Positions 1 to 26,931 of a DNA stretch of 28,255 nt are shown piece after piece (the first letter of the stretch is position 1; every line of letters starts with the position of its first letter). Source of the DNA: a virus; the IMG/VR virus record IMGVR_UViG_3300023109_000094, positions 1-28,255 of that record, one strand, 5' to 3'. The notes beneath the pieces were generated by a model. That model was not told the origin of the DNA and searched no databases. It saw only the letters and a program-made list of their open reading frames with translations. Both the position numbers and the translations under genes were made by a program.

Positions 1-1
1 T

Positions 2-94
2 ATACGCGATATCCGCGGTAGAAAGGGTGTAGCGGTTTTTATAAATCGAGTACAACTCTCACCCATCGATTGTATATACTTATATCTAAGGTAG
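2..94 (+). CDS. possible 3' end of an upstream gene (partial)
   Basis: Only the frame beginning at base 2 is open at the left edge. It encodes 30 residues, including GRKGVAVFINRVQL, and stops with TAG at 92-94. The two other forward frames close within 33 bases. Codons such as CGC and GGT are richer in G+C than in most neighbours. The segment GVAVFINRVQ has the look of a beta strand near the end of a nucleic-acid-binding protein, but that is a weak impression and no family is assigned. It could also be non-coding. Confidence 0.3.
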   Translation: MRDIRGRKGVAVFINRVQLSPIDCIYLYLR

Positions 95-153
95 GAAGTA
101 TAACAAAATCTATGTATTATGTAGTATATATGAATATTTAAATATCCATCATT

Positions 154-243
154 ATGAAATCACCAGTAGGAGCATACACAACATTAAATGTTTTAATTCT
201 AATGATATTAATAACTCTCATGATGGGAGGCCCCGTATGGTAA
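154..243 (+). CDS. tiny hydrophobic peptide (29 aa)
   Basis: An ATG at 154, preceded by CATCATT, opens a 29-codon frame ending with TAA at 241-243. After a short polar start (MKSPVGAYTT) the product is almost wholly hydrophobic, with LNVLILMILITLMM as a likely single membrane-spanning helix. A 5-bp inverted repeat overlaps its stop codon. Small membrane peptides are common in early regions of large phages, but at this size chance cannot be excluded. No function is proposed. Confidence 0.35.
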   Translation: MKSPVGAYTTLNVLILMILITLMMGGPVW

Positions 244-250
244 AAGGGCC
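229..250 (+). other. small inverted repeat at the end of the 29-aa frame
   Basis: GGCCC at 229-233 is complementary to GGGCC at 246-250, with a 12-nt loop that includes the stop codon of the tiny frame. The G+C stem stands out in very AT-rich DNA. It is not followed by a T run on the + strand, so it is not a typical intrinsic terminator. It might separate the upstream transcript from the promoter at 322. Confidence 0.35.
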
Positions 251-321
251 AAATTTCCATAAAATTAAAAAAAGTGCTCTCGAAAAATCTCGCGAGTCGA
301 CAAAAGTATATACAAGGAGGC

Positions 322-352
322 TTGGATACCCAGGAAATCTTTCGTATATTTA
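322..352 (+). promoter_or_regulatory. early-class promoter P1
   Basis: TTGGATACCC at 322-331 and TTCGTATATTTA at 341-352 match two other sites (2248 and 2893) almost base for base. The gap between TTG and TA is exactly 20 nt in all three. This fits the known Bacteroidetes promoter, with TTG near -33 and TAnnTTTG near -7. The expected transcript starts near 356 and reads into the DUF932-like gene through an A/T-rich leader. Which sigma factor reads it is not shown. Confidence 0.8.
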
Positions 353-381
353 GGTATATTAATAATAAATAAATAAAAGTT

Positions 382-1191
382 ATGTTAGATTTAAATTCAA
401 GTAAATTTTTAAGTAAGAAAGAGTTAAGTGAAATCGCTCCAAGTATCTTCACAATGAAAGCTTCAGGTGAAGTTTCAGATAAATACACACATATCCCAAC
501 CGAAAGAGTTATTGATGATATGGAGTTATTAGGATGGAAGCCGGTTGATGCGAAAGAGGTTAAAACGAGAAAAGAAAGTACAAGTGGCTTCCAAAAACAC
601 TTAGTTGTTTTTAGAAATGATGATGTTGTTATTAATGGTCAAGATGGTGATCAGGTATATCCACAAATTTTAATTACTAACTCTCATGATGGTAAAAATT
701 CATTTCAATTTACCGCAGGATTATTTAGAATGATTTGTGAGAATGGCTTAGTTATAGCAACAGAAGAATTTGAAGATTTAAAAATGCGCCATATGGGTTA
801 TACATTTGAGGATTTGCAAGTATTAATTAAAGGTATGGTTGAAAAGCTACCTCTAACGGTTGAGGCGATGAATAAAATGAAAGCAGTAGAATTACAAGAA
901 GAAGAAATGTTTGATCTTGCTAAATCATTTTTAGATATTAGAGTTGAAGGAACTAAAAATACATTTAGTAAAGAAGCAGTTGAAGAAGTATTAATTGCTC
1001 AACGTAAGGAGGATGAAGGTAATATGCTTTGGGAAGTATTTAATAGAGTTCAGGAAAACATCATTGAAGGTAATTTCTTATATAATACCCCAAAAGGTAA
1101 ATCACGTCAAGCTCGAGTTATTAAGAACTTCAAACAAGATCAGGAAGTAAATAAAAAAATGTTTACAAAAGCACTTGAATATGCGAACTAA
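382..1191 (+). CDS. DUF932-like phage/plasmid protein
   Basis: This 269-residue protein resembles the DUF932 family found in phages and plasmids, whose function is not firmly known. The recognisable core is roughly residues 45-130: LGWKPVDA, then HLVVFRND, then TNSHDGKNSFQF followed by GLFRMICENGLVIA. The rest is helical and charged. The ATG at 382 follows promoter P1 and the leader AATAAATAAATAAAA (364-378), and the AAAGTTATG context recurs at other starts here. The downstream nucleotidyltransferase gene begins inside its last codons, so the two are probably co-translated. Family membership is judged by eye; no enzymatic role is claimed. Confidence 0.75.
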   Translation: MLDLNSSKFLSKKELSEIAPSIFTMKASGEVSDKYTHIPTERVIDDMELLGWKPVDAKEVKTRKESTSGFQKHLVVFRNDDVVINGQDGDQVYPQILITNSHDGKNSFQFTAGLFRMICENGLVIATEEFEDLKMRHMGYTFEDLQVLIKGMVEKLPLTVEAMNKMKAVELQEEEMFDLAKSFLDIRVEGTKNTFSKEAVEEVLIAQRKEDEGNMLWEVFNRVQENIIEGNFLYNTPKGKSRQARVIKNFKQDQEVNKKMFTKALEYAN

Positions 1192-1585
1192 AATAACATG
1201 GTTAAATGGTTGTTTTGATGTGCTCCACGCGGGGCACATCCAACTATTCAAAAAAGCTTGGGAGCAAGGAAATGATGTGGTAGTGGGAATAGACTCAGAT
1301 GAAAGAATTCGATCGATGAAGGGTGATTGTCGTCCAGTGAATTCTCTAGCAAACAGAATGATTTTCCTCCAAAGTATAAAATACATTCGTACGGTAATAC
1401 CTTTCAATACGGATGAAGAGCTAGAAGCTAATATTAAACGCTTGGCTCCCGAAGTATTTGTAATTGGTGAGGAGTATAGAGATAAACCCATTATAGGTAA
1501 GGAGTGGGCTAAAGAAATGGTGTATGTACCTCGCTATCAAGGTTTAAGCTCCTCGGGTATTATAAATGGAACCCACAACTCATGA
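1181..1585 (+). CDS. cytidylyltransferase-like nucleotidyltransferase (RfaE2/TagD type)
   Basis: This protein belongs to the HIGH-type nucleotidyltransferase superfamily. The N-terminal WLNGCFDVLHAGH carries the HxGH nucleotide-binding motif (HAGH, residues 16-19), followed by GIDSDERI, RP, and near the end GLSSSGII, which corresponds to the STTxII element of RfaE2/TagD enzymes. Such enzymes activate a phosphorylated sugar or glycerol phosphate with CTP or ATP. At 134 residues the protein is the usual length for a single-domain member. A TTG at 1175 would add two residues, but the ATG at 1181 is the better start and overlaps the DUF932 gene by 11 bases. The substrate is unknown; it may supply a precursor for sugar or nucleotide modification. 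Confidence 0.85.
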   Translation: MRTKITWLNGCFDVLHAGHIQLFKKAWEQGNDVVVGIDSDERIRSMKGDCRPVNSLANRMIFLQSIKYIRTVIPFNTDEELEANIKRLAPEVFVIGEEYRDKPIIGKEWAKEMVYVPRYQGLSSSGIINGTHNS

Positions 1586-1597
1586 TATTTATCATAA
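1586..1597 (+). promoter_or_regulatory. late-type motif (variant) before the gene at 1611
   Basis: TATTTATCATAA begins immediately after the nucleotidyltransferase stop codon, 25 nt before the ATG at 1611. It is the least perfect of six ATATTTATAAY-like motifs in the window: ATATTTAT is intact, and the following base is C rather than A. Confidence 0.5.
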
Positions 1598-1610
1598 AAC
1601 ATAACACATT

Positions 1611-1976
1611 ATGCCAACTTACTCAGCATCAGACTTAAATGGAAGCGGATCACTAGGTACCTCAGCAATGACGGCCGGTCAAACCTATACATTCGAATTA
1701 TCTAACACACCAACGACCATAGGTTCGGTAGCCTACTTTACGCTGGAGGCTAACTCAACCGCAAATCAAAATTTATCAACCCAAACCTCATGTGAAGGCA
1801 CATTCGGTGGGTTTTTAAATGAAGTTGATGAAGGCTCATTAATAGAAAATTTATATGGGTTTTCTATAAGCGTATATGGAGCGGGTGGAGCTTTTGAATT
1901 CACACCAACCACAACCATTCCCGCAAATTCATACTATCTTAAAACAACTGGAGTAGTAGGTTTGCAATTGACGTAG
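1611..1976 (+). CDS. unknown small beta-rich protein, possibly a virion component
   Basis: This 121-residue protein is rich in Ser, Thr, Gly, Asn and aromatic residues and has almost no charge. Predicted strands (TYTFELSN, VAYFTLEA, GFSISVYG, YYLKTTGVVGLQL) suggest an all-beta fold. That composition is typical of phage decoration or fibre proteins and unlike the charged early proteins around it. A late-type motif lies just upstream, so it may be a late gene lodged within the early block. It has no signal peptide or membrane segment. The codons are somewhat richer in C (ACC, TAC) than the neighbours. The family is not recognised. Confidence 0.7.
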   Translation: MPTYSASDLNGSGSLGTSAMTAGQTYTFELSNTPTTIGSVAYFTLEANSTANQNLSTQTSCEGTFGGFLNEVDEGSLIENLYGFSISVYGAGGAFEFTPTTTIPANSYYLKTTGVVGLQLT

Positions 1977-2094
1977 TATATACGTATGTATAGATAATGT
2001 GATGTATAAAGGGGAATTTTTGAAGCGACGCTTGAATAAATGTTATGAATAATAAAATTAAATGATATTGGATTTATTTAATAAAAAGAAAGTT

Positions 2095-2241
2095 ATGAAA
2101 TTACAACAAAAAAATAAATTGTTGGAAAACACTATTCTAGAAATGGGTAAACAAATCACTTATCTTAAAAAGCAATCTAAGCATTATAAGGAAGAAAATG
2201 AAGAATTGAAGTTTACCTTAAAACATCAAAGAACTTATTAG
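2095..2241 (+). CDS. small coiled-coil protein (48 aa)
   Basis: The ATG at 2095 sits in the AAAGTTATG context used by neighbouring genes and opens a 48-codon frame ending with TAG at 2239-2241. An in-frame ATG at 2062 would give 59 residues with MILDLFNKKKV in front. The product is highly charged and helical (LLENTILEMGKQITYLKKQ, then KEENEELKF), with heptad-like spacing of leucine and isoleucine that suggests a short coiled coil. Promoter P2 follows directly. The function is unknown. Confidence 0.55.
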   Translation: MKLQQKNKLLENTILEMGKQITYLKKQSKHYKEENEELKFTLKHQRTY

Positions 2242-2247
2242 AAATAT

Positions 2248-2278
2248 TTGGCTACCCGGAGGAGGGTTCGTATATTTA
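2248..2278 (+). promoter_or_regulatory. early-class promoter P2
   Basis: TTGGCTACCC at 2248-2257 and TTCGTATATTTA at 2267-2278 form the second member of the early promoter family, with the same 20-nt gap between TTG and TA as P1 and P3. It starts seven bases after the coiled-coil ORF ends. The expected transcription start, near 2282, coincides with the left arm of a hairpin. Confidence 0.8.
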
Positions 2279-2280
2279 GG

Positions 2281-2299
2281 TGTTCGAATGGTTCGGACA
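2281..2299 (+). promoter_or_regulatory. 5'-end leader hairpin of the P2 transcript
   Basis: TGTTCGAA (2281-2288) pairs with TTCGGACA (2292-2299) over 8 bp around a TGG loop, with one G-U pair. It lies at the predicted transcript start. A related hairpin sits in the same place behind P3 (2926-2944), and the differences between them keep pairing. The shared leader continues with CAATTA before the start codons. Confidence 0.55.
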
Positions 2300-2315
2300 A
2301 TTAAAAATTAAAGTT

Positions 2316-2687
2316 ATGTTGTTAGGTATTTTATTATTAATTATTTTTGGGTATTATTTTATATGGGGCATGCTTCATTTATTTGCTTTTTTATATGACC
2401 ACCCTAGGCTGTTTGTGGTTTTTAGTTTATCTTGTATTATATTCCCTTCATGGTTGTGGTATGATAACTGGGAAAGTGATATGAAGGTAATTGGATTTTT
2501 CATATTTCTCCCAGTTATATTAGGTGGAATTAGGTTATTACCTACGAGTTTAATAGAATTGTTGAAAGGAATGACACATAGAAAATTAAGAGATAAGCAA
2601 AATAGAAAATGGGAGAAACATTTACGGAAAAAAGTTGAAGATGGTAGGATGACTGAGAAAGAATTTATGAAACTTACAAAATTATAA
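2316..2687 (+). CDS. small integral membrane protein (about 123 aa)
   Basis: The protein has about three hydrophobic spans: roughly residues 1-25 (LLGILLLIIFGYYFIWG), 31-47 (LFVVFSLSCIIF) and 57-75 (VIGFFIFLPVILGG). A strongly basic, lysine- and arginine-rich C-terminal tail of about 40 residues follows. The open frame extends back to a GTG at 2280, but that stretch overlaps the end of promoter P2 and the leader hairpin shared with P3. The ATG at 2316, in the AAAGTTATG context, is therefore the more credible start. The basic tail probably faces the cytoplasm. No family is recognised; its early position would fit a host-envelope or takeover role, which is inference. Confidence 0.65.
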   Translation: MLLGILLLIIFGYYFIWGMLHLFAFLYDHPRLFVVFSLSCIIFPSWLWYDNWESDMKVIGFFIFLPVILGGIRLLPTSLIELLKGMTHRKLRDKQNRKWEKHLRKKVEDGRMTEKEFMKLTKL

Positions 2688-2692
2688 AAGTT

Positions 2693-2860
2693 ATGAAACG
2701 AATTTATGAAATGACCGATAAAGAATTAAGACAATCGGTAGGTGCAAACACTAGAGTTATGACTAATAGATTAATTTCTATTTCCAAATGGATAACATTT
2801 TGGTCTATATTACAAATTATTGCTTTAGTTATATTTGGGTTTGTATTAATAAACAGCTAG
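2693..2860 (+). CDS. small single-pass membrane protein (55 aa)
   Basis: The ATG at 2693, in the AAAGTTATG context five bases after the previous stop codon, opens a 55-codon frame ending with TAG at 2858-2860. The first 30 residues are polar (MKRIYEMTDKELRQSVG and on). They are followed by a C-terminal hydrophobic segment (WSILQIIALVIFGFVLI) that should span the membrane once, giving a tail-anchored protein. It is probably co-transcribed with the membrane gene before it. The function is unknown. Confidence 0.6.
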   Translation: MKRIYEMTDKELRQSVGANTRVMTNRLISISKWITFWSILQIIALVIFGFVLINS

Positions 2861-2892
2861 TGAAAAAAAATTAAAGACTCCCGCATAAAGAC

Positions 2893-2923
2893 TTGGATAC
2901 CCGGGATATCTTTCGTATATTTA
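2893..2923 (+). promoter_or_regulatory. early-class promoter P3 (sigma-70 gene)
   Basis: TTGGATACCC at 2893-2902 and TTCGTATATTTA at 2912-2923 form the third copy of the early promoter, again with a 20-nt TTG-to-TA gap. It lies 44 bases before the phage sigma-70 gene, so that gene may be controlled by the host sigma factor or by its own product. Confidence 0.8.
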
Positions 2924-2925
2924 CA

Positions 2926-2944
2926 TGTTCGAATGAGTTGAACA
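2926..2944 (+). promoter_or_regulatory. 5'-end leader hairpin of the P3 transcript
   Basis: TGTTCGA (2926-2932) pairs with TTGAACA (2938-2944) over 7 bp around ATGAG, with one G-U pair. Compared with the P2 leader, one T-G pair has become T-A and one G-C pair has become G-T. Both changes keep pairing, which supports an RNA structure rather than a DNA-binding site. Confidence 0.55.
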
Positions 2945-2966
2945 ATTAATTAAAAATAAAGGTTAT

Positions 2967-3740
2967 ATGGCAAATTATCAAAATCAGCAAGAATTACAAA
3001 TGTATTTTAAGGAATTGAATAACATTCCTGTAATGACTCCTAATAGAGAAAGAGAATTATCACTAATGATGCGTAATGGAGATACTACGCAAATTCAAAA
3101 AGATAGAATAGTTAAAGAATTACTTGAGGGTAATTTAAGATTCGTAATTAAAATAGCTAATAAGTATCAAAACCAAGGAATGGATTTGGTTGACTTAATA
3201 TCGGAAGGTAATTTAGGTTTAATGAAAGCTATTGATAATTTTGATTGGGAAAAAGAATTAAGATTTATTACTTATGCTGTTTGGTGGATTAAGCAATCTA
3301 TTTTAGAAGCTTTAAATGAAAATAGAACAATTAGACTCCCAATGAATATTCTTCAGGATATAAGTAATGCTAAGAAATTAGCCAGAGACACTAACACTGA
3401 AATTGATGATAAATTCACCAGCTATGCTAAAACCATCTCTGCTGATAATTGGATGAATGATGAAGGTGATACATTCTTTAACATTTTAGAAAATAAAGAT
3501 ACCCCATTACCAGATGAAGGGATTGATGATGAAAATCCTTTAAAATCCAAATTAAGAAACGCAATGTTAGTACTTAATGCTAAGGAAAAGGAAATTATAG
3601 AGAGATATTTTGGGTTTGATGGTATGCCTGATTCATTTGATACATTGAGTGAAGATTTTGGATTAACTAAAGAAAGAATCAGACAGATTAAAGAAAAGGC
3701 ATTACAAAAACTTCGTACTAGAAATTTAATTTTAAATTAA
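2967..3740 (+). CDS. RpoD-like sigma-70 factor
   Basis: This 257-residue protein is a clear sigma-70 family member, close to the primary sigma factor of Bacteroidetes in size and in lacking region 1.1. Region 1.2 spans about 7-40. Region 2 spans about 45-117, with GNLRFVIKIANKYQNQG, DLISEGNLGLMKAID and FITYAVWWIKQSIL, covering core binding, -7 recognition and melting. RTIRLPMNI at 120-128 corresponds to the start of region 3. A shortened, acidic linker follows, then region 4 at about 196-252 with the helix-turn-helix LTKERIRQIKEKAL. All core regions look intact, so it should direct RNA polymerase to promoters. It lies behind promoter P3 and a leader hairpin. It probably redirects host polymerase early or in mid-infection; that timing is inference. 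Confidence 0.93.
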   Translation: MANYQNQQELQMYFKELNNIPVMTPNRERELSLMMRNGDTTQIQKDRIVKELLEGNLRFVIKIANKYQNQGMDLVDLISEGNLGLMKAIDNFDWEKELRFITYAVWWIKQSILEALNENRTIRLPMNILQDISNAKKLARDTNTEIDDKFTSYAKTISADNWMNDEGDTFFNILENKDTPLPDEGIDDENPLKSKLRNAMLVLNAKEKEIIERYFGFDGMPDSFDTLSEDFGLTKERIRQIKEKALQKLRTRNLILN

Positions 3741-3897
3741 TATTCACGTAGGTGGTGCTTACGGCGATAAAAAATCAACGTTGGCGCGTTTTGTGGGTAA
3801 TTTTAGTCTATTGCGTAATGACACTAAAAAACGTTTAGTAATCGAAAATGATGACAGCCCAAATGAATATTCTGTTAAAGATTTAAGCGAATATTAA
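3736..3897 (+). pseudogene. 3' fragment of a UV-damage endonuclease (UvdE) gene
   Basis: The frame read from 3736 to the TAA at 3895-3897 encodes IHVGGAYGDKKSTLARF and then KKRLVIENDD followed by YSVKDL. This matches the conserved pattern of UvdE (UVDE family) endonucleases, in which HxGGxYGDK and RLxxENDD contribute metal ligands of the TIM-barrel active site. Only about 52 codons remain of a protein usually near 300 residues. There is no start codon, and the frame is closed by TAA at 3733-3735 inside the sigma gene. Codons such as GGC, ACG, GCG, CGT and TTG differ from the A/T-ending codons of the flanking genes. It looks like the tail of a foreign or formerly intact repair gene, joined directly to the end of the sigma gene. 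Confidence 0.8.
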
Positions 3898-3917
3898 TAA
3901 TTAAATAAATAGAAATT

Positions 3918-4091
3918 ATGACAAGAAGTACAAGAATTGAAAAGTTAAATGATTTAGCATTTTTAGTGGGATTACAAGGTAGAGTTTGGAAATACCATCC
4001 TGATAATCCAAAGGCTGTTGATGTTAAAGAGGAATATATATCACTCCAAAAAGAAATTGATGAAATAGAAAAAGAACTATCAGATAGTTAA
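3918..4091 (+). CDS. small unknown protein with a C-terminal helix (57 aa)
   Basis: The ATG at 3918 follows an AATAAATAGAAATT leader and opens a 57-codon frame ending with TAA at 4089-4091. The product begins MTRSTRIEKLNDLAFLVGLQ, has a short WKYHPDNPKAVDV linker, and ends in a charged helix (YISLQKEIDEIEKEL) that could form a coiled coil. A strong terminator begins 24 bases downstream, so this is the last gene of the P3 unit. No family is recognised. Confidence 0.6.
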   Translation: MTRSTRIEKLNDLAFLVGLQGRVWKYHPDNPKAVDVKEEYISLQKEIDEIEKELSDS

Positions 4092-4114
4092 AAAAATAGT
4101 TTTGTTTTACCCCT

Positions 4115-4151
4115 AAAAGGTGGATGGTTGAAAAACCATCTGCCTTTTTTT
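4115..4151 (+). terminator. intrinsic (Rho-independent) terminator
   Basis: AAAAGGTGGATGGTT (4115-4129) pairs with AACCATCTGCCTTTTTT (4134-4150) around a GAAA tetraloop. The pairing runs across the whole stem with two G-U pairs, and the right arm merges into a seven-base T run. It would end transcripts from promoter P3. Confidence 0.9.
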
Positions 4152-4180
4152 ATTGGTGTGAATATAATTTGGAATGGTGA

Positions 4181-4190
4181 TATTTATAAC
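4181..4190 (+). promoter_or_regulatory. late-type motif before the gene at 4226
   Basis: TATTTATAAC, preceded by GA, lies just after the terminator and 45 bases before the ATG at 4226. Upstream, AATATAATTTGGAAT (4161-4175) is repeated exactly before another copy of the motif at 21910-21924. Confidence 0.6.
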
Positions 4191-4225
4191 ATATATTATA
4201 GTTTTAACAATTAGTTTATTAAATA

Positions 4226-4411
4226 ATGAGTCTTAATTCTGAGGATAGATTACTAGAAGTTTATAATGAAATTGATAATTTAAATCTTTTTCCAAGTTTT
4301 TACTCGCAAATAGACAAAATGCAGACTCAACCCAAACATAAACATAAAACTGTCCCTGAAAAATGGGAGTATGCTTTAGATAAGGTAAAAGGAAACAATA
4401 TTAATGATTAA
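4226..4411 (+). CDS. small unknown acidic protein (61 aa)
   Basis: This 61-residue protein begins MSLNSEDRLLEVYNEIDNLNLF and has a central KMQTQPKHKHKTVPEKWEYAL. It has no membrane segment or recognised domain. Its last eight bases overlap the start of the next gene, which suggests co-translation. A late-type motif at 4181 and the terminator at 4115-4151 make it the first gene of a new unit. Three closely spaced histidine-lysine pairs are the only unusual feature. Confidence 0.6.
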   Translation: MSLNSEDRLLEVYNEIDNLNLFPSFYSQIDKMQTQPKHKHKTVPEKWEYALDKVKGNNIND

Positions 4412-4808
4412 CGTAGATAACTTATTTAATCTATTTCCCTCTGAGGAAGAAGATAGTGAAGTATACATAGGTTTTACTGAAAGGCCCATGTATAAGTTAG
4501 GTATGTATAAAAAATTAGTTTTAAACTTTCTTACTTTTAAAGAGAAGGTAGTTTCATTTTTAAAAGACGCCAATGCTGAATTAAGTGAAGATGAAATGGG
4601 GGAAGCTGGGGCTTTAATAGCATATACTAGAGCTTGGGGTTATATAGAACAAATAGAAATTAACAATCCAGAACACATTGAAGCTATAAAAGAATATAGC
4701 AATGATGAAATGGTACAATCCTTAAATTTAGGGATTTTCTACTATGAAAGACATGAAGAATACGAAAAATGTGCTTTCTTACTACAAATACTAAATCTTT
4801 CAAAATAA
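4404..4808 (+). CDS. unknown acidic alpha-helical protein (134 aa)
   Basis: The protein has 134 residues and is acidic, with mostly helical predicted structure (FLTFKEKVVSFLKDANAEL, IAYTRAWGYIEQIEI, then YERHEEYEKCAFLLQIL). The C-terminal half has a helix-pair look similar to small TPR-like adaptors, though no repeat consensus is met. It starts within the last codons of the preceding gene. It ends shortly before the unusual intergenic region that carries two promoter candidates. No family is recognised. Confidence 0.65.
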   Translation: MINVDNLFNLFPSEEEDSEVYIGFTERPMYKLGMYKKLVLNFLTFKEKVVSFLKDANAELSEDEMGEAGALIAYTRAWGYIEQIEINNPEHIEAIKEYSNDEMVQSLNLGIFYYERHEEYEKCAFLLQILNLSK

Positions 4809-4832
4809 TTTTTTAAAAATCTCAAAAGTAAT

Positions 4833-4863
4833 TTGGCTTTTGGAATTCACTCCGGTATATTAT
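4833..4863 (+). promoter_or_regulatory. candidate divergent early-class promoter
   Basis: TTGGCT (4833-4838), preceded by ATT as in P2, is followed by CGG and TATATTAT (4856-4863). The TTG-to-TA gap is exactly 20 nt, as in P1-P3, but the ACCC block is missing and the -7 element is imperfect. TATAAATA, the T4 late consensus, also occurs at 4861-4868. Confidence 0.4.
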
Positions 4864-4869
4864 AAATAC

Positions 4870-5021
4870 GGGGTTAAAAAGTATTGAGAATGGTTGAGAA
4901 AAATAGGGTATTGAGGTATATGGTATATGATGTGTGAGGGGGGTAAAGGTACCTTGGATATATGAGTATGGGGGTGTATATTGGAGTATATATAAAAATA
5001 ATTAATAAATAAATAAAATGG
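4870..5021 (+). other. C-depleted, G/T-rich intergenic leader
   Basis: Apart from two bases (4952-4953) there is no C on the + strand over about 150 bases, while G runs are frequent, including GGGGGG and GGGGG. GGTATATGG-like and TGAG-like words recur. No reading frame or stable hairpin is evident; without C the RNA could fold only through G-U and A-U pairs. It precedes the gene at 5018. Confidence 0.6.
4954..4984 (+). promoter_or_regulatory. candidate early-class promoter before the gene at 5018
   Basis: TTGGATA (4954-4960) and TATATTGG (4977-4984) have the same 20-nt TTG-to-TA gap as P1-P3. The first seven bases equal P1 and P3, while the ACCC and TTCG parts are lost. The gene's leader contains AATAAATAAATAAAA, as behind P1. 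Confidence 0.5.
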
Positions 5022-5215
5022 CATTTAGAAACAAACAAGGTATTGATAAAGGATTTACCAATGTAAAATCCGGAATTAAAACATTAGATTTAATGGTTTC
5101 CCGAGGAGGATCATCTGTTGAGGATTTTAGAAAAAAACTTAAAGAAGTTTACGAAAAACTAGAAAACCTAGAATCATTAGTAGAACGTGAAGCTAATGTT
5201 ATGAGAAACGGATAA
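5018..5215 (+). CDS. small unknown coiled-coil protein (65 aa)
   Basis: This 65-residue protein begins MAFRNKQGIDKGFTNVKSGI. After a SRGGSS turn it continues as one long charged helix (EDFRKKLKEVYEKLENLESLVEREANV) with heptad leucines and valines. It is probably an oligomerising or partner-binding small protein. It is the first gene of a unit that includes the HD hydrolase and the gp55-like sigma factor, all within a few bases of each other. No family is recognised. Confidence 0.65.
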   Translation: MAFRNKQGIDKGFTNVKSGIKTLDLMVSRGGSSVEDFRKKLKEVYEKLENLESLVEREANVMRNG

Positions 5216-5224
5216 AATATAATT

Positions 5225-5998
5225 ATGAAATTAACAGCAGAACAAATCCAGTCAAATTGGGAAATTTTCCTCAATAATATTGAAGTACATATTACTGGAG
5301 AGCGTAAGGACCAACTATTAAAATTTTATGAAAAGTATGGAGATCGTATTATGATGATGCCTGCTGCCCATAAAAAAGAATACCATTCAGCATTCCCAGG
5401 GGGATATGTTGATCATGTTAATCGTGTAGTTAGATGTGCTCTCAAGCAATCAGAATTATGGAGTTGTGAAGGTTGTGATATGTCAACATTTACAGAAGAG
5501 GAATTAGTATTCTCAGCTATAAACCATGATTTAGGTAAGATGGGGGATAGTGAAAATGATGCTTATATACCTCAGACAGATAAATGGAGGAAAGATAAAT
5601 TAGGTGAAGATTATATGTTTAATAAAAAATTAGCATTTGCTTCAGTTCCAGATAGAGGATTATTTCTACTCCAGCAACATGATATTAAATATACATTTAA
5701 TGAAATGATGGCGATTCAAACACATGATGGTTTATATGACTCAGCAAATGACAAATATTTAAAAGGATTTATGCCAGAGCAAAAGCCTCGTACATCTTTA
5801 CCTTATATACTACATCAAGCAGATATGATGGCCGCAAGAATTGAATTTGAAGTTGAATGGTTACCTAAGTTCAAAAATAACGTGGATGCTAGTAAAAAGA
5901 ATTTTACATTAGATGGTGTAAAGAAAACTTCAACTAAAAATAAGGCTTTAGGTTCTATTCAAAGTGAAGGTTTAAAAAACATTTTTGATAAATTATAA
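5225..5998 (+). CDS. HD-domain metal-dependent phosphohydrolase
   Basis: This 257-residue protein has the HD-superfamily metal-site pattern: PGGYVDHVNRV (about residue 58, first His), NHDLGKMG (about 99, the His-Asp pair), THDGLYD (about 166) and HQADMMAARIE (about 197, final Asp). HD enzymes hydrolyse phosphate esters such as nucleotides, cyclic dinucleotides or RNA 3' ends. The arrangement resembles stand-alone HD proteins of large phages and the C-terminal domain of YhaM-type exoribonucleases. The substrate cannot be told from sequence. A Cys pair (CEGC, about residue 81) is notable. The stop codon overlaps the next start by one base (TAATG). Confidence 0.85.
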   Translation: MKLTAEQIQSNWEIFLNNIEVHITGERKDQLLKFYEKYGDRIMMMPAAHKKEYHSAFPGGYVDHVNRVVRCALKQSELWSCEGCDMSTFTEEELVFSAINHDLGKMGDSENDAYIPQTDKWRKDKLGEDYMFNKKLAFASVPDRGLFLLQQHDIKYTFNEMMAIQTHDGLYDSANDKYLKGFMPEQKPRTSLPYILHQADMMAARIEFEVEWLPKFKNNVDASKKNFTLDGVKKTSTKNKALGSIQSEGLKNIFDKL

Positions 5999-6291
5999 TG
6001 GAAATTACAACAACAACAATACTTATTTCAGTTTTAAGTTTTATAGTCCTAATTTTAGGATATACAACTATTAATTTACTTAAGAAAAATGAAAGGGCAG
6101 AAGATATTGTAGTAGGTTACCTTGAATATTTAGATAAAATATCTAGAGTAATAGAGGTAGCAGATGAAAGAGTTAAAAAGATAGATATCAAGGGTTCATT
6201 CGAATCTGATGATGAAGTAGGATTTTTCTTCAAACAAATAAAACAAATCCAATCAATCTTAAATGATTTTCAGTTAAAAGGAGAAAAATAA
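5998..6291 (+). CDS. small membrane-anchored protein (97 aa)
   Basis: One N-terminal membrane helix, about residues 7-28 (ILISVLSFIVLILGYTTIN), is followed by KK and then a 65-residue charged domain that should lie in the cytoplasm. It contains ESDDEVGFFFKQIKQI and LNDFQLK. It is translationally coupled to the HD gene by a one-base overlap and lies three bases before the gp55-like gene. Small anchored proteins of this form are common in T4-like genomes but mostly unassigned. No function is proposed. Confidence 0.65.
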   Translation: MEITTTTILISVLSFIVLILGYTTINLLKKNERAEDIVVGYLEYLDKISRVIEVADERVKKIDIKGSFESDDEVGFFFKQIKQIQSILNDFQLKGEK

Positions 6292-6294
6292 TTC

Positions 6295-7107
6295 ATGGAT
6301 TATATAATAAAGAGAAAAAAATCCCAAAAGCAGGGAAGGGTATATTTCACAAAAGAAACAGAAGCAGCTATTGTTAAATACAATAATTCTACTAATGAGT
6401 TAGAACGAAGTGAATTATACCAAGACCACATCCATTGGCCATTTTATAAACTCACAGAAAATATAATCCACACTTTCAAATTTTATTATACAGATGGTGT
6501 TGAAAATTTAGAGGATTTACAACATGAAATAATTGTATTCCTTTTAAGTAAAATACACTTATTTAACCCTGAAAATGGAGCTAAAGCATATTCATATTTT
6601 GGTACTATTGTAAAGCGTTGGTTAATAGTGTATAATACCAAAAATTATGGTAATAAAATAAAAAACATCGCCATATCTGATCTTAATCATTATTCACAAT
6701 TAGACACATCAGATCCCGCATTTATTACATCAAGCAAACGTGAAGCAGATATTAGTACTGTTACTGAGTATGAAGAATTTAGTAATAAAAATCTAAATGA
6801 AACTAAAAATTACAAACATGAAGATCGTTTATCTATATTTATAGATCAATACACTGAATATGTTACTGATATAATTTATGATTTATTTCCTAAAGGTAAT
6901 GATGCTTCAATAGCTGATGCTATATTAGAATTATTTAGAAAAAGAGATGCTATTGATGTGTTTAATAAAAAGGCACTTTATATCTACATCCGTGAGATGG
7001 TAGATGTTAAAACCCCTAAAATCACTAAAATAGCTAATAAATTATATGCTATATTTAAAGAAAAATATATGTTCTATTTAGAGCATGGTTACTTCCCGCC
7101 AAAATAA
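6295..7107 (+). CDS. T4 gp55-like late sigma factor
   Basis: Residues about 70-125 fit the sigma region 2 pattern of phage late factors: NLEDLQHEIIVFLLSKIHLF, then NPENGAKAYSYFGTIVKRWL and a basic KNYGNKIK. This parallels the NPHAYITQACFNAF...KKERKE segment of T4 gp55. T4 gp55 binds the RNA polymerase core and recognises short late promoters, with help from gp33 and the sliding clamp. This protein, at 270 residues, is longer than gp55 (185). The extra C-terminal 100 residues include a possible helix-turn-helix near 225-255 (KALYIYIREM, TPKITKIANKL). It directly precedes the virion operon, whose first gene has an ATATTTATAAT motif. Confidence 0.78.
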   Translation: MDYIIKRKKSQKQGRVYFTKETEAAIVKYNNSTNELERSELYQDHIHWPFYKLTENIIHTFKFYYTDGVENLEDLQHEIIVFLLSKIHLFNPENGAKAYSYFGTIVKRWLIVYNTKNYGNKIKNIAISDLNHYSQLDTSDPAFITSSKREADISTVTEYEEFSNKNLNETKNYKHEDRLSIFIDQYTEYVTDIIYDLFPKGNDASIADAILELFRKRDAIDVFNKKALYIYIREMVDVKTPKITKIANKLYAIFKEKYMFYLEHGYFPPK

Positions 7108-7120
7108 TTTAAAGTTTACA

Positions 7121-7130
7121 TATTTATAAT
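7121..7130 (+). promoter_or_regulatory. late-type motif at the head of the virion operon
   Basis: TATTTATAAT, preceded by ACA, lies between the gp55-like gene and the first virion-operon gene, with 10 bases to the ATG. It is the cleanest placement of the ATATTTATAAY motif. TATTTATA is the reverse complement of T4's late consensus. Confidence 0.65.
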
Positions 7131-7140
7131 CAAAAGCATT

Positions 7141-7488
7141 ATGGGACAATTAGATTCACAAGTTTTTGGTAATAAAACCTTCTCAGATATTTTAGAGGAA
7201 ATTTATAACAACCAGAAAAAACGAGATGCTCAAGTAGTAGCATTAATATCAGAATTAAAACCATTAGTTCAAGAGATAGGAGATGCAACTCTTATTGTAC
7301 CTTTAATAAAAGAATACATGGAGATTGGAGTTAAAAATGATGAGGCTTTAATTAAAATGGCTACTATTATTCAAAGATCTCTTTCGAATATTAATGATGA
7401 GGGTGGTTTAGGGATAACAGATGAAGAAAAAGAAGCATTATTAGCTGAAATGGATAAGTTAAATAATAGTAAGGAAGAGAATGGCTAA
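7141..7488 (+). CDS. unknown helical protein, first gene of the virion operon
   Basis: This 115-residue, all-helical, acidic protein begins MGQLDSQVFGNKTFSDILEEIYNN and contains ISELKPLVQEIGDATLIVPLIKEYM and ITDEEKEALLAEMDKLN. Its last eight bases overlap the start of the spike gene, so it is co-translated with a baseplate component. That suggests a small structural or assembly role next to the tail hub. No family is recognised, and the absence of Cys or membrane segments gives no further clue. Confidence 0.65.
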   Translation: MGQLDSQVFGNKTFSDILEEIYNNQKKRDAQVVALISELKPLVQEIGDATLIVPLIKEYMEIGVKNDEALIKMATIIQRSLSNINDEGGLGITDEEKEALLAEMDKLNNSKEENG

Positions 7489-8716
7489 AAAAAGTGGGGT
7501 AGGATTAGGGATATTTTCATCTCCTAATTTAAATAAAGATATAAATCAAGTTTTTACCCATGGTAGGGTAAAATTTGCTATAACTAACTCTACAACTTAC
7601 CCTGATAGTTTTAAAAAATTTGGTGAGTGGGCTACTATAGGTGCTATATTTTTTGAAGATATAAATAACCCTCAATCAAACCCAAATTCATCAGCAAACA
7701 CCATAGCATATCCTTTAAATCCAAACTCATCAAATATTCCCCTTACAAATGAAATAGTTTACATAGTAAAATTACCTAATTCCCAAATTCAAGGTAATGT
7801 AAACTCATTTTCATATTATTATTTTAATCCTTTAAATATATGGAATAGTGCCCACCATAATGCTATACCTGATGGAATATATGCTGATACTATTCCTGAA
7901 TCTCAACAACAAGATTATATTCAAACTGAAGCTGGTATTGTAAGACGAGTTACAGATGGTAGTACAGAAATTAATCTAGGAGATACCTTTCAGGAATCGT
8001 TAGAGGTAAGAAATTTACAACCATTTGAAGGTGATATAATACATCAAGGTAGATGGGGTAATTCTGTTAGATTTGGTTCAACTATAATTAATTCAAACCC
8101 TTCTAATCCTTGGTCAAATTCCGGAGTAGATGGTGATCCAATTACTATTGTTAGGAATGGTCAACATGATGATGATAGAGATCCATGGATACCACAAGTA
8201 GAAGATATAAATGAAGATAAATCTAGTATTTATTTAACTTCTACCCAACAAATCCCTATTGAAGCATCAAGTAAAGAATATAGTTCATACTTCAATGCTC
8301 CTACACCTTTAAATCAATTTGATGGAGAACAAATAATATTAAATTCAGGACGTATAGTTTTTAATTCAAAAACAGACTCAATCCTCTTATCATCTTTTGA
8401 TACTATCAATTTAAATTCTCTTAATAGTGTAAATATTGATTCACCAAAAACCATTGTAGCATCTCCTGAAATATATTTAGGTGATAAAAATGCAACTGAA
8501 CCTGTAATATTAGGGGATACATTCCTAGATGATTTAAACAAATTATTAGTATCTTTAGTTAGTTTAAGTAATGCTTTAACAACACCCATAGCATCACCAG
8601 GACCAGGACCTTTAAATGGAGCTATAACAGCACCAGCTACAGATACTGTTATCAAAGCTCAAAATATGCTTAACAGAATTGAAGTTTATAAATCTAAAGT
8701 AAGTAAATCTAAATAA
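7481..8716 (+). CDS. gp5-like baseplate hub/spike protein without lysozyme domain
   Basis: The protein has 411 residues. DIIHQGRWGNSVRFGSTI at about residue 184 is the signature of the OB-fold part of gp5/VgrG-type spikes in marine T4-like phages. Residues about 285-345 form short alternating strands (IILNSGRIVFNSK, ILLSSFDTINLNS, NSVNIDSPKTIVAS, PEIYLGD), as expected for a trimeric beta-helical spike. Unlike T4 gp5, no lysozyme domain is visible between them. The C-terminal 70 residues are helical with a Pro-Gly-rich break. It stands before gp25 and gp6 homologues, which agrees with a baseplate hub role: the spike pierces the outer membrane during contraction. Confidence 0.78.
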   Translation: MAKKSGVGLGIFSSPNLNKDINQVFTHGRVKFAITNSTTYPDSFKKFGEWATIGAIFFEDINNPQSNPNSSANTIAYPLNPNSSNIPLTNEIVYIVKLPNSQIQGNVNSFSYYYFNPLNIWNSAHHNAIPDGIYADTIPESQQQDYIQTEAGIVRRVTDGSTEINLGDTFQESLEVRNLQPFEGDIIHQGRWGNSVRFGSTIINSNPSNPWSNSGVDGDPITIVRNGQHDDDRDPWIPQVEDINEDKSSIYLTSTQQIPIEASSKEYSSYFNAPTPLNQFDGEQIILNSGRIVFNSKTDSILLSSFDTINLNSLNSVNIDSPKTIVASPEIYLGDKNATEPVILGDTFLDDLNKLLVSLVSLSNALTTPIASPGPGPLNGAITAPATDTVIKAQNMLNRIEVYKSKVSKSK

Positions 8717-10056
8717 TGAATCCGTTAAATAAAGTAATTAATAAAGCAGTTATTAAGGTAGTTCAAAGTACATCTAAACTAGAACTATCTGTTGACTTTT
8801 TGATTAGTAAATTTAAGGAAGGTTGTCCTCCAAAGGCAGAAATATTAAAAATAGTACAACAAAAAAACCAATTACAAGAGGGATTAGATCAAGTTTTACA
8901 AGTATTTACTACCGTTCAAAAAAGTGCAGATATTACTAGTGATACAATTTCAGCAGTTCAAGGAGCTGTTAGTGTTATAAAAAGTATTCCTGTTCCTACA
9001 GCAATAATCCCACCTTCTGGGGGTGTAGGTATTCCTATAAATATCATTACAAAACTCTCAGATTCTTTAGATTCACTAGCAATAGTTTTAAGAGAGGCTA
9101 AAGGAGCTGTACAGGCAGTACCAACAGCAGCTAAAACCATTACTAGTGTTGTTGATAAAGCTATTACTAATTTATCCCAATTAGATTTTTTAATAACAGG
9201 ATGTATTGATGAATTAGCTGTAGATATGACTCAAGAAGAAAAAAATAATTTAATCCAAGAAGTCAATAACTCAGCAGCAACTTCTGGTACATTTTCAAAC
9301 CCAGCATTAAATATATTAGGTGAAGAAGAATTAATATCTCAATTATCAGCAAATTCATCAAAACCTTTTAAATATGCTAAACCTGGATTTTCAACAAAAG
9401 ATTGGCAATTTGTTTTAGAAGAAAATGCTGCTAATACTTTATCATTACCTCAAAGAAGAATTAAAGCAACTAATGTAAATTTTTCAAGCCAATTTAACCC
9501 CTTTATAGGTTATGTTGTTTATAATAGTAGATATGCAAAAACATATTCATATACAACTTCTATAAAAACTTTAATAGCAGAAACAAAACAAGTTATTGAT
9601 TCACTAAATGTAAGATGGGCATCATTAAATAATGAACAATATAAACCACCAACATCCGGTGGAGAATCTTCGGGACAACTTAAATTAAAAATACCCCCAG
9701 AATTATTAAAAATACCAGTAACATCAACAGCACCAAAATTTGTATTTGGTACTATTGAAAAAACCCAAACAAATCAAAAATTAGAACTTGTAATGAGTAC
9801 AGGTTTTTCAAATACATCAAATACTGGGAATAAGTATAGAGTAACAGTTTCAAGTGTTAAATCGGGGTCTACAGAAGCCCCAAGAGTAAAAAGTTATTTT
9901 ATAAGTAATAAAACCCCAGCAATTCAATCCGTATTTCTATATACAGAAGGTGAACCATCTTTAGGAGATTATAATGTTGTCATTAGTATAGAAGATATTG
10001 TATTTGGAACTCCTGTAGATAATGCATCGGTACAATTAAGGACAAAATATGTTTAA
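8716..10056 (+). CDS. virion structural protein, probably baseplate/hub-associated
   Basis: In this 446-residue protein the first 190 residues are helical with long amphipathic stretches (AEILKIVQQKNQLQEGLDQV, then ITKLSDSLDSLAIVLREAK), broken by a Pro/Gly-rich hydrophobic segment near 92-108. The middle contains GFSTKDWQFVLEENAANTL and an aromatic FIGYVVYNSRYAKTYSY. The last 110 residues look like a beta-sandwich (KYRVTVSSVKSG, NYNVVISIED-like strands). It overlaps the spike gene by one base. A helical N-terminus with a beta C-terminal domain between the spike and gp25 suggests a tail-hub or adaptor role, but no family is assigned. Confidence 0.7.
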   Translation: MNPLNKVINKAVIKVVQSTSKLELSVDFLISKFKEGCPPKAEILKIVQQKNQLQEGLDQVLQVFTTVQKSADITSDTISAVQGAVSVIKSIPVPTAIIPPSGGVGIPINIITKLSDSLDSLAIVLREAKGAVQAVPTAAKTITSVVDKAITNLSQLDFLITGCIDELAVDMTQEEKNNLIQEVNNSAATSGTFSNPALNILGEEELISQLSANSSKPFKYAKPGFSTKDWQFVLEENAANTLSLPQRRIKATNVNFSSQFNPFIGYVVYNSRYAKTYSYTTSIKTLIAETKQVIDSLNVRWASLNNEQYKPPTSGGESSGQLKLKIPPELLKIPVTSTAPKFVFGTIEKTQTNQKLELVMSTGFSNTSNTGNKYRVTVSSVKSGSTEAPRVKSYFISNKTPAIQSVFLYTEGEPSLGDYNVVISIEDIVFGTPVDNASVQLRTKYV

Positions 10057-10073
10057 AAAGAATAATAATTTAA

Positions 10074-10083
10074 TATTTATAAC
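10074..10083 (+). promoter_or_regulatory. late-type motif before the gene at 10089
   Basis: TATTTATAAC lies only five bases before the ATG at 10089. If transcription starts at a T4-like distance of about six bases downstream, the mRNA would begin practically at the start codon. It would give the gp25/gp6 part of the operon its own promoter. Confidence 0.6.
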
Positions 10084-10088
10084 AAAAA

Positions 10089-10427
10089 ATGAAGTCATCA
10101 GAATTAAAAAAATTAATTAAAGAATCCGTAAGAGAAGCAATTCAGGAAGAATTGAAAGACATCTTATTGGAAGCTGTTAAGACTCCAAGAGTTACAACCA
10201 TAGCCGAAACAGGCCCAGTTTTAGAAACAGTTAACCCCCAACAACCAACTATGACTGCTGAACAAAAAAGATCAGCATATCAAAATATTTTAGGAAACAT
10301 GAGTGGGCAATTTACATCAGCTCAAGTTCAACCAAAATTCCAACCTAAAGGAGGAGATTCAATTAATGGGTCCTTACCCCCAGGAGAAGTTGATATGTCT
10401 CAAATAGCAGGTTTAATGGGTAAATAA
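10089..10427 (+). CDS. unknown small structural-operon protein (112 aa)
   Basis: The N-terminal 30 residues form a charged amphipathic helix (MKSSELKKLIKESVREAIQE, then ELKDILLEAV). A Pro/Gln-rich, probably disordered middle follows (VNPQQPTMTAEQKRSAYQN), and the end is GEVDMSQIAGLMGK. Short proteins starting with this kind of helix occur in many T4-like genomes near baseplate genes, but their role is not established. It lies six bases before the gp25 gene and after its own late-type motif. It might be an assembly chaperone or a small baseplate part. Confidence 0.65.
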   Translation: MKSSELKKLIKESVREAIQEELKDILLEAVKTPRVTTIAETGPVLETVNPQQPTMTAEQKRSAYQNILGNMSGQFTSAQVQPKFQPKGGDSINGSLPPGEVDMSQIAGLMGK

Positions 10428-10433
10428 TAATAA

Positions 10434-10841
10434 ATGGCTAGAATATTAAGTAATAGATTTCCAATTGACTCCGTTGAGAGAAAAGCAGTAGGGTTTAGTT
10501 TACCATTTAATGGTCCCGCTGTTTTTAACCCTACATATACTGTTAGGGATCAAACTAAATCTAACTTAATTAACTACCTACTAACAAATAGAGGAGAAAG
10601 GGTATTTAACCCTAATTTTGGTGCTGATTTAAGAAATTTATTATTTCAAAATATTACAGAAACTACAACTGATGAATTATCAAATATTATACAATCTGAT
10701 ATAGGCAAATATTTTCCTCAAGTATCAATAAAAGAAATAAAATTTTTAAATGAACCTGATTTTAATCAAATAAATTTTTCATTAACTTACACCATAGCAA
10801 ATTTTGGTATAACTGATGACATACAAATATTACTACAATAA
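10434..10841 (+). CDS. gp25-like baseplate wedge protein
   Basis: This 135-residue protein fits the GPW/gp25 family, a conserved part of the inner baseplate wedge in contractile tails that also resembles a lysozyme-like fold. The hallmark lies at about residues 40-75: LINYLLTNRGERVFNPNFGADLRNLLF, followed by DELSNIIQSDIGKYFPQV. The segment NRGERVFNPNFG corresponds to the typical turn before the strand-helix core. Its length equals that of T4 gp25 (132). The stop codon overlaps the gp6 start by one base, which preserves the usual gp25-gp6 pairing. It nucleates sheath and wedge assembly in related phages. Confidence 0.9.
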   Translation: MARILSNRFPIDSVERKAVGFSLPFNGPAVFNPTYTVRDQTKSNLINYLLTNRGERVFNPNFGADLRNLLFQNITETTTDELSNIIQSDIGKYFPQVSIKEIKFLNEPDFNQINFSLTYTIANFGITDDIQILLQ

Positions 10842-21906: not shown

Positions 21907-21921
21907 CCAAATATAATTTGG
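21907..21921 (+). other. small perfect hairpin after the giant gene
   Basis: CCAAAT (21907-21912) and ATTTGG (21916-21921) form a 6-bp perfect inverted repeat with a three-base loop, four bases after the stop codon. The following bases are A-rich rather than T-rich, so it is a poor intrinsic terminator. It overlaps the 15-mer shared with 4161-4175. Confidence 0.35.
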
Positions 21922-21942
21922 AATAAAAATAAAAAAATCATA

Positions 21943-21952
21943 TATTTATAAT
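21943..21952 (+). promoter_or_regulatory. late-type motif before the gene at 21967
   Basis: TATTTATAAT, preceded by ATA, lies 14 bases before the ATG at 21967 in a 63-base gap, one of the few gaps in the virion operon. AATATAATTTGGAAT stands upstream, as it does before the motif at 4181. Confidence 0.65.
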
Positions 21953-26921: not shown

Positions 26922-26931
26922 TATTTATAAC
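26922..26931 (+). promoter_or_regulatory. late-type motif before the collagen-like gene
   Basis: TATTTATAAC, preceded by GA, begins one base after the nuclease stop codon and 33 bases before the ATG at 26955. It would switch transcription back from replication genes to a virion gene. Confidence 0.65.

Follow-up and report, generated by a model that had tools for sequence, protein, structure and literature searches.

The late promoters of phage T4 are reported to require gp55, gp33 and gp45, the replication clamp (PMC6024815), and two-sigma phages are described in three further sources: Enterobacteria phage CBB encodes a sigma factor with regions 2, 3 and 4 (CBB_513), a gp55-like sigma factor (CBB_244) and two predicted promoter types (PMC5259590), group 2 jumbo phages carry minimal and RpoD-like sigma factors, of which the RpoD-like ones could be cell-derived according to the authors (PMC7824862), and a survey of 4,350 phage genomes counted two sigma homologues in 1.1% and three in 0.7% of them (PMC9429907). 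Here, we analyzed IMG/VR virus record IMGVR_UViG_3300023109_000094, whose 28,255 bases (the window, meaning the whole stretch of DNA under study) encode an RpoD-like sigma factor and, 2.55 kb away, a gp55-like late sigma candidate, together with two classes of promoter-like motifs. We propose that host sigma-A would read the early class, that the gp55-like protein would read the late class and that the RpoD-like protein would be an accessory second sigma factor, a programme to which we assign, as a whole, a probability of about 0.55. Two-sigma phages of this general kind are already in print; what is new here is that a Bacteroidota-type sigma family lacking domain 3 is paired with a gp55-like factor of long form that has a late box of its own, and also that one gene, the RpoD-like one, is seen entering a lineage previously without it.

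The first-pass annotation of the window had singled out a phage that brings its own primary-type sigma factor plus a late one, as a sign of a different takeover scheme in Bacteroidetes. Both factors are indeed encoded in this T4-like phage of Bacteroidetes type, but the combination is not new, as it is found in CBB, in nine large records described below and in VAP7, SCTP-2, LR756500 and Prevotella phage Lak-B2, which have a sigma-70-type gene and a separate match to phrog_234 (7.6e-38 to 6.4e-10; at the lax limit of E <= 1, 7 of 14 cellular control genomes also match phrog_234). As described in PMC5259590, CBB differs from the window in having a sigma factor with region 3, an enterobacterial host and E. 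coli-type promoters, and the group 2 jumbo phages of PMC7824862 are different phage groups for which gp33 orthologues are reported.

The window is a portion of a T4-like phage, on the basis of its baseplate wedge genes (phrog_261, phrog_219), which follow small early-type genes and then the gp55-like gene and are themselves followed by primase and exonuclease genes. The closest named phage that we found is Flavobacterium phage vB_FspM_immuto (Immutovirus; hereafter immuto), a cultured member grown on Flavobacterium sp. LMO8 and deposited as a complete genome of 160,410 bases, whose gp55-like protein is 39.6% identical to that of the window and whose genes stand in the same order (phosphohydrolase, 97-aa open reading frame (ORF), gp55-like gene, baseplate genes). 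Immuto thus resembles the window in its gp55-like protein and neighbours, in the late class and in a variant of the early class, and differs from it in having no RpoD-like gene. The two sigma genes of the window are the following:

2967 to 3740, + strand: RpoD-like (sigma-A-type) phage sigma factor of 257 aa, with regions 1.2, 2 and 4 and most of the domain-3 helix-turn-helix deleted.
6295 to 7107, + strand: gp55-like late sigma candidate of 270 aa, with a sigma-2 domain (about residues 1-118) and a conserved C-terminal domain of about 95 aa.

The RpoD-like protein scores above the Pfam cut-offs for Sigma70_r2 (8.4e-18; 64.4 bits, cut-off 24), Sigma70_r4 (3.2e-11; 43 bits, cut-off 24.1) and Sigma70_r1_2 (5.8e-5; 23.4 bits, cut-off 22) and above that of the superfamily model TIGR02937 (105.7 vs 42.9 bits), and it matches phrog_351 ('RNA polymerase sigma factor') at 6.6e-48 and solved SigA, RpoS and RpoD chains down to 4.9e-40. 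Among the best 25 of 54 matches, those to the NCBIfam equivalogs for RpoD, RpoS and SigA stayed under their cut-offs (157.2 of 354 bits for RpoD_Cterm, 175.5 of 378.7 for RpoS). The gene is therefore where the first-pass annotation had placed a full RpoD-like sigma-70, with regions 1.2, 2 and 4, but the protein is not full: region 3 is absent among its Pfam matches, most of domain 3 is missing, and it has no region 1.1. Bacteroidota primary sigma-A proteins (286-290 aa, no region 1.1) are 35-40% identical to it over long matches and have in common with it signatures of the FI[ST]YAVWWI[RK]QSIL and E[RK][VI]RQIKEKA types, but they keep domain 3 and a C-terminal tail, whereas in the alignment the phage protein lacks about 20 domain-3 residues and the tail. 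Its promoter-reading helices retain the Bacteroidota signatures FITYAVWWIKQSIL and ERIRQIKEKAL.

The gp55-like protein of the window, taken alone, matches Sigma70_r2 at 0.0014 and TIGR02937 at 0.0029, both below the curated cut-offs, and phrog_234 ('late sigma transcription factor') at 0.024. Across the family, the first-pass assignment of a gp55-like factor to this place gains weight, since 46 of 46 aligned members match Sigma70_r2 (best 1.9e-5) and 34 of 46 match phrog_234 (best 6.6e-4), both at E <= 1. This alignment left out L005 and L079 (L numbers designate the loci compared here), whose gp55-like frames hold internal stops; the copy at L005:6467-7276 reads with one internal stop codon, which may be a sequencing error. 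Residues 1-118 of the structure model can be superposed on 88-108 residues of sigma-2 domains at about 2.5-3.5 A (Z about 8), a fit that is suggestive only for a helical domain. When a 70-sequence profile of the family was compared with eight gp55 sequences, with the SCTP-2 and LR756500 frames left out, it matched gp55 of an ACG-2014f cyanophage at 1.4e-5, of KVP40 at 1.5e-4 and of VAP7 at 0.6, and the alignments were colinear with gp55 of T4-like phages. Foldseek with the model returned nothing at E <= 0.001, and no solved chain was matched by the profile. Taken together, the family profile matches, the sigma-2 fit and the weak support from gp55 sequences make it likely that the protein works like gp55, its identity with gp55 being not proven.

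The C-terminal domain of this protein (about residues 175-264) is roughly as conserved as the sigma-2 part. Its interpretation as a sigma-4 domain was dropped for want of support (hhalign 0.2%, and no region-4 family listed for the 46 members); structural alignments of the model did extend into full-length sigma factors, at an rmsd above 14 A. Matches to DUF2624 (26 of 46 members, best 0.0071) were taken as chance, leaving the domain without a recognised family. The window copy departs from the family at 0 of 95 near-invariant positions, unlike the RpoD-like copy. In immuto the corresponding gene, immuto26A_153, is annotated as 'hypothetical protein' and can now be annotated as a late sigma candidate. 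Relatives at 34-40% identity also occur in Microcystis phage Mel-JY01 (L084) and in LR756508 (L085), phages not tied to Bacteroidetes; a viral scan with the Mel-JY01 protein gave no relative, and a Pfam sigma match is absent for the gp55-like proteins of Mel-JY01 and immuto.

Two promoter-like motif families, as the first-pass annotation had noticed, stand out in the window. The early class reads TTGG-N19-TATATTTA and the late class reads ATATTTATAA without a -33 box. The shorter form TTGG-N19-TATATT is found 7 times where 0.32 are expected, always on the + strand, and TTCGTATATTTA is found 3 times where 0.03 are expected; for ATATTTATAA there are 5 occurrences, again always on the + strand, with 1.42 expected, and 0 of 100 shuffles reached 5. 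The sites are the following:

322 to 352, + strand: early-class promoter candidate TTGG-N19-TATATTTA, ahead of the DUF932 gene at 382.
2248 to 2278, + strand: early-class promoter candidate before the ORF at 2280, whose listed GTG start lies directly behind the box, with an in-frame ATG at 2316.
2893 to 2923, + strand: early-class promoter candidate before the RpoD-like gene, with a leader that ends in AATTAAAAATAAAGGTTATATG.
4169 to 4197, + strand: TTGG-N19-TATATT early-like element enclosing the late box at 4180-4189.
4180 to 4189, + strand: late-class box ATATTTATAA before the ORF at 4226.
4833 to 4861, + strand: TTGG-N19-TATATT early-like element, upstream of the 5018 ORF and the gp55-like gene run, in the gap that precedes them.
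4954 to 4982, + strand: TTGG-N19-TATATT early-like element before the 5018 ORF.
7120 to 7129, + strand: late-class box ATATTTATAA before the ORF at 7141, the first gene past the gp55-like gene.
10073 to 10082, + strand: late-class box ATATTTATAA in front of the ORF at 10089, with the baseplate wedge genes lying downstream.
21918 to 21951, + strand: composite site TTGG-N19-TATATTTATAA, early and late elements sharing their core, before the ORF at 21967.
26921 to 26930, + strand: late-class box ATATTTATAA before the collagen-like ORF at 26955.

The two families cannot be called non-overlapping, as had been claimed, since the core ATATTTA is common to both, the site at 21918-21951 carries both and one late box lies inside the early-like element at 4169-4197. 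For the immuto gene related to the 21967 ORF, the late box (at 90,660) is accompanied by a TTG at -33. E. coli-type promoters were rejected as a candidate class, as their matches in positions 1-8000 were fewer than in shuffles (31 vs 47.8).

The -33 element of Bacteroidota sigma-A promoters is TTTG or TTG. The published -7 box of Flavobacterium sigma-A is TAnnTTTG in F. psychrophilum (PMC9723704). The promoter form found in the early class has a -33 TTG element about 19-21 nt before a TAnnTTTG-like -7 box, with TTG exactly 20 nt before TATATTT in 29 of 48 early sites; the window's three TTCGTATATTTA sites have A as last base in place of the G of TAnnTTTG. The TTGG-TTCGTATATTT form is present in the window and in 12 of 83 other loci scanned, many of which do not reach early genes. 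In a genome scan, 49 loci among the 80 matches listed have Bacteroidota titles, and among the matches listed the motif lies inside an ORF at 7 of 51 Bacteroidota sites vs 19 of 31 elsewhere (p 1.6e-5, with some genomes contributing several loci). Judged from these letters, the early class is a form of Bacteroidota sigma-A-type promoter. Among the same matches, 12 of the 51 Bacteroidota sites lie within 200 bases of contig ends (L110, L138, L140, L143, L144 and other Flavobacterium or Chryseobacterium contigs). Identical copies also occur within one genome, as would be the case for promoters of operons present in several copies, for example those for rRNA (the stretches viewed did not include the operon).

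This class is also present without the RpoD-like gene. In immuto, which has no Sigma70_r4 match and hence no RpoD-like gene, a variant TTG-N18..22-TANNTTTAGG has 19 sites on the + strand, of which 17 fall in a 60-77 kb block of small genes and 0 in the virion segments. The exact early motif occurs in 30 copies in the 280 kb of eight window-group records without the RpoD-like gene (records picked for already showing the motif), and in just 2 copies in the 5.03 Mb of 42 records that bear the gene.

The late motif, in turn, is the main upstream word, and a directional one, in relatives that bear the gp55-like gene, in agreement with its first-pass placement before virion genes. On the coding strand the late box reads TATTTATA. 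Counted on the + strand of the loci, with related loci pooled, an ATG follows the start of TATTTATA at 8-45 nt in 57 of 105 cases in L004-L029 (2.1 expected), 101 of 173 in L030-L082 (3.2 expected) and 23 of 30 in immuto (0.6 expected), and in 5 of 9 in the window. The distance from box end to ATG has a median of 7-16.5 nt in the four sets, and a TTG lies 17-21 nt upstream at 22 of 189 late sites vs 35 of 48 early sites. The + strand of immuto has 30 late boxes (15 more are on the - strand), of which 18 lie in virion segments and 3 in the 60-77 kb early block; early and late sites differ in placement (Fisher 4e-8, with segments set from the annotation after the site lists were seen). The late class thus goes with the gp55-like gene and with virion genes. 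Across 79 RpoD-like loci, TATTTATA is found in 50 of 555 upstream regions and its reverse complement in 18 of 555, and a host-type TATATTTG class is also present.

Relatives of the RpoD-like protein are encoded in at least 536 IMG/VR stretches, as revealed by a scan whose query was an alignment of the window protein with six host sigma-A proteins and of which the best 80 were examined. The idea that the gene is unique to this phage was rejected on this result; the earlier one-sequence pattern scan (only L086; none in genomes) was an artefact, because its patterns came from variable stretches. L086 is of the same population as the window, to judge from 5149 of 5155 equal bases; the five coding differences are all synonymous, and none of them lies in the RpoD-like gene. 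Apart from L086, the best 79 relatives share 51-61% identity along almost their whole length and sit on contigs of up to 318 kb, the closest among them being L355 and L358 (60-61%). At least 18 of 20 host domain-3 columns are deleted in 80 of 80 aligned family members, window included, and in none of the 5 host sequences. When 20 members, the window among them, were placed in a tree with cellular sigma factors (60 of the 80 members, two partial cellular sigma frames, two divergent cellular sigma factors and five other phage sigma factors being left out), the family is separate from the Bacteroidota rows (92/93; long branches, midpoint root), and the window adjoins L355 and L358 (90/95, a fork short of the best-supported ones) on a branch of 1.04 vs 0.06-0.08 for its nearest relatives. 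In a collection of 50,697 phage records the family has only distant matches, all 196 of them below 60% identity, with the 40 best-ranked at 26-35%. In L356, a 270 kb phage, the gene (about 9956-10771) stands among an SbcC-like gene, a PRPP synthetase gene and an amidase gene.

Among the 79 new RpoD-like loci, 42 (contigs over 60 kb) were used for co-occurrence and for the early-motif counts given above. Nine of these 42 also hold a gp55-like gene (E 4e-19 to 4e-24; 25-35% identical to that of the window over the best segment), phrog_234 finds the same nine (E 1.3e-4 to 0.0094), and they make up 9 of the 13 RpoD-like-bearing records of at least 130 kb, so that carriage of both factors is usual in these larger phages. 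In relatives of the window that bear the gp55-like gene, the situation is the reverse: by tblastn the RpoD-like gene was not found in any of the 26 loci, out of 80, that have at least 4171 bases upstream of the gp55-like gene, and 0 of 99 gp55-like-bearing records apart from L086 (sets of 50 and 49) exceeded the Sigma70_r4 cut-off, with one match below it in G059 (18.5 bits). The Sigma70_r4 search covered 47 of the 80 loci of the first gp55-like set and 49 of the 80 of the second, and tblastn covered all 80 of the first. What the RpoD-like gene seems to have displaced can be read from its 3' side:

3736 to 3891, + strand: remnant of uvdE (UV-damage endonuclease), covering codons 149 to about 200; its frame differs from that of the RpoD-like ORF, at whose very end it begins.

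In tblastn this remnant is 87-92% identical to uvdE of L005, L007 and L008 and 70% to that of L012 (E 2.5e-19 to 1.1e-24). An intact uvdE stands at this place in five close relatives (L005, L007, L008, L010 and L012; that of L005 matches PF03851 at 1.1e-54), and in L013, L014 and L017 the place is taken by other small genes. Over AATTAAAAATAAAGGTTATATG, the leader in front of the RpoD-like ATG equals that of the L005 uvdE, which is weaker evidence because other early genes have similar leaders. The remnant and the position, together with this leader match, indicate that the RpoD-like gene replaced most of uvdE. The gene is accessory in this phage, and its source was probably the large phages carrying both factors, the direction of transfer being our inference.

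The likeness to T4 late transcription with its gp55, gp33 and gp45 lies in a small region-2 phage sigma factor and a lone extended -10-type box before virion genes. The T4 late box is TATAAATA, which is the reverse complement of TATTTATA; it is not the late box of the window, ATATTTATAA. We rejected the proposal of a late box identical to that of T4 and oriented as it is there, since that orientation is less frequent upstream of genes, though above expectation. T4 gp55 (185 aa) also differs in lacking the conserved C-terminal domain of about 95 aa. The C-terminal tail of T4-type gp55 proteins is clamp-binding and, by eye, the gp55-like protein of the window ends differently from such tails. 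With T4 as a control, which matched PF02916 at 2.9e-35, searches of immuto, Mel-JY01 and three large IMG/VR records gave no match to a gp45-type (PF02916) or DnaN-type (PF02768) clamp, and immuto has two genes annotated as DNA polymerase family A. Considering the missing clamp match and these family A polymerases, T4-type coupling probably does not apply, unless the clamp has diverged or a host clamp is used. Among the papers listed, titles and abstract starts showed none on late promoters of Bacteroidetes T4-like phages or on immuto transcription.

The programme that we favour can be set out as follows, with the host, core binding, the assignment of each sigma factor to a class, timing and the direction of transfer all being deduced from comparison of sequences. 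Host holoenzyme with host sigma-A would read the early class (TTGG, 19 nt, TATATTTA), including the site before the RpoD-like gene. The gp55-like protein would then be made by early or read-through transcription; the early-like elements at 4833 and 4954 precede the gene run that holds its gene, and the late box at 7120 precedes the 7141 gene. Through its sigma-2 domain the gp55-like protein would bind host core polymerase, and it would read ATATTTATAA in front of virion genes, an extended -7 box that stands alone with no -33 element. The RpoD-like protein would be an accessory second sigma factor of Bacteroidota sigma-A descent that has kept the helices reading the -7 and -33 elements, and most likely joins host core, so that promoters of host type (early or middle) stay active during the competition of the phage with host sigma-A.

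Could each sigma factor instead own one class, the RpoD-like protein being a dedicated early sigma factor, as the first-pass annotation had inferred, and the gp55-like protein a late one? One 28 kb record does hold both factors and both classes, and large RpoD-like-bearing phage loci also show two motif classes, one of TATATTTG type and one of TATTTATA. We nevertheless consider this improbable, since the early class or its immuto variant occurs without the RpoD-like gene, since so few exact copies are found in the records that bear the gene and since an early-class site precedes the RpoD-like gene itself, so that another factor must read this class first. A role for the RpoD-like protein as a middle-class or host-directed factor, which would serve a promoter subset or host genes or titrate core polymerase from the host, appears somewhat doubtful to us. 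It would fit the domain-3 deletion common to the whole aligned family and the seven consecutive near-invariant residues changed at 222-228 (region 4.1) in the window copy; yet the promoter-reading helices are largely retained, and the top upstream words of the relatives are the two classes plus an A-rich leader, with no third promoter-like class (this was not a full motif search).

That the gene is recently landed cargo heading for loss, with no role in this phage, is a doubtful proposition as well, to which its accessory place, the broken uvdE behind it, its long branch, its many changed positions and its absence from the searches of gp55-like-bearing relatives nonetheless lend some credit. 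It is countered by a frame that is open over 257 codons and identical in L086, by the purely synonymous coding differences between L086 and the window and by the promoter-like site that the gene has of its own. As for the late box, its closeness to the ATG is what would be seen if it were a translation or RNA-processing signal near start codons rather than a promoter, an explanation that we hold to be unlikely given its concentration in virion segments and rarity in the early block of immuto and its resemblance to an extended -7 box.

Several observations weigh against the programme of host sigma-A, gp55-like late factor and accessory RpoD-like factor. T4 gp55 itself scores only 0.072 in hmmsearch with the 70-sequence profile (in the 8-sequence database), hhalign against T4 gp55 alone gives a probability of 1.2% (28% with a deeper profile), the gp55-like model is of middling confidence (pLDDT 64.5), and a single-sequence model of the RpoD-like protein was unusable (pLDDT 41). 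Of 116 near-invariant positions, 31 are changed in the window RpoD-like copy, whereas none of the other 79 members has more than 4 changes, and the copy may therefore be decaying or have another role. Immuto, though related, is not of the same species, and its early motif is a variant and not the window's exact TTGG-TTCG form. Among the 99 Bacteroidota genomes sampled, just 5 contain the exact motif, and these include the centre genome, which was selected because it has the motif; in the same genomes a permuted pattern occurs in 0 and the reversed pattern in 2. The reverse complement TATAAATA of the late box also lies upstream above expectation, though less so (12 of 72 in L004-L029, 11 of 84 in L030-L082 and 6 of 15 in immuto; in the window it does so in 0 of 3). 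The absence of the RpoD-like gene from relatives is not proof, because most records are fragments. The hosts are probably Flavobacteriia-like, an assignment based solely on promoter form and immuto. A host link through genome bins was dropped: early-motif contigs in a Flavobacteriaceae bin looked phage-like but the window proteins matched 1 of 11 such loci, taken from that bin and others, and weakly, so that no host claim is based on bins.

Other features of the window are these:

1175 to 1585: cytidylyltransferase-like protein (PF01467 2.4e-16; phrog_7878 1.6e-40), present in some relatives only.
4115 to 4148, + strand: intrinsic-terminator-like hairpin of 15 pairs with a T tail, ending the RpoD-like gene run.
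24716 to 25165: protein matching phrog_447 (named NAD synthetase) and also homing-endonuclease families.
26955 to 27995: collagen-like Gly-rich repeat protein in the tail region (PF01391 2.1e-10).

The hairpin stands between the RpoD-like gene run and the run holding the gp55-like gene, and has the longest stem of the terminator-like sites in positions 1-8000 (4 vs 2.9 expected). A giant ORF of 2404 aa (14689-21903) lies between the baseplate genes and the 21967 gene, and the phrog_447 name of the 24716-25165 protein may be a misannotation.

T4-like late transcription is known from E. coli, with gp55 coupled to the replication clamp, and a related-looking sigma factor here serves phages of a phylum with different promoters (TAnnTTTG), and no clamp was matched in five large relatives, of which two have been deposited as complete. 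Tentatively, and with less than even confidence, we suggest that a large uncultured group of T4-like Bacteroidetes phages may have a clamp-less late switch, in which a gp55-like sigma factor with its own conserved C-terminal domain (in place of gp33 and gp45) would read ATATTTATAA, a host -7 box extended and with the -33 element dropped, and that a sigma-A derivative without domain 3 may circulate among the large phages of the group and take over host-type promoters, the window showing its move into a lineage earlier without it. With immuto as a cultured member, the question of the late switch is testable, and the RpoD-like family provides natural sigma variants without most of domain 3 that would be useful for asking what this domain does.

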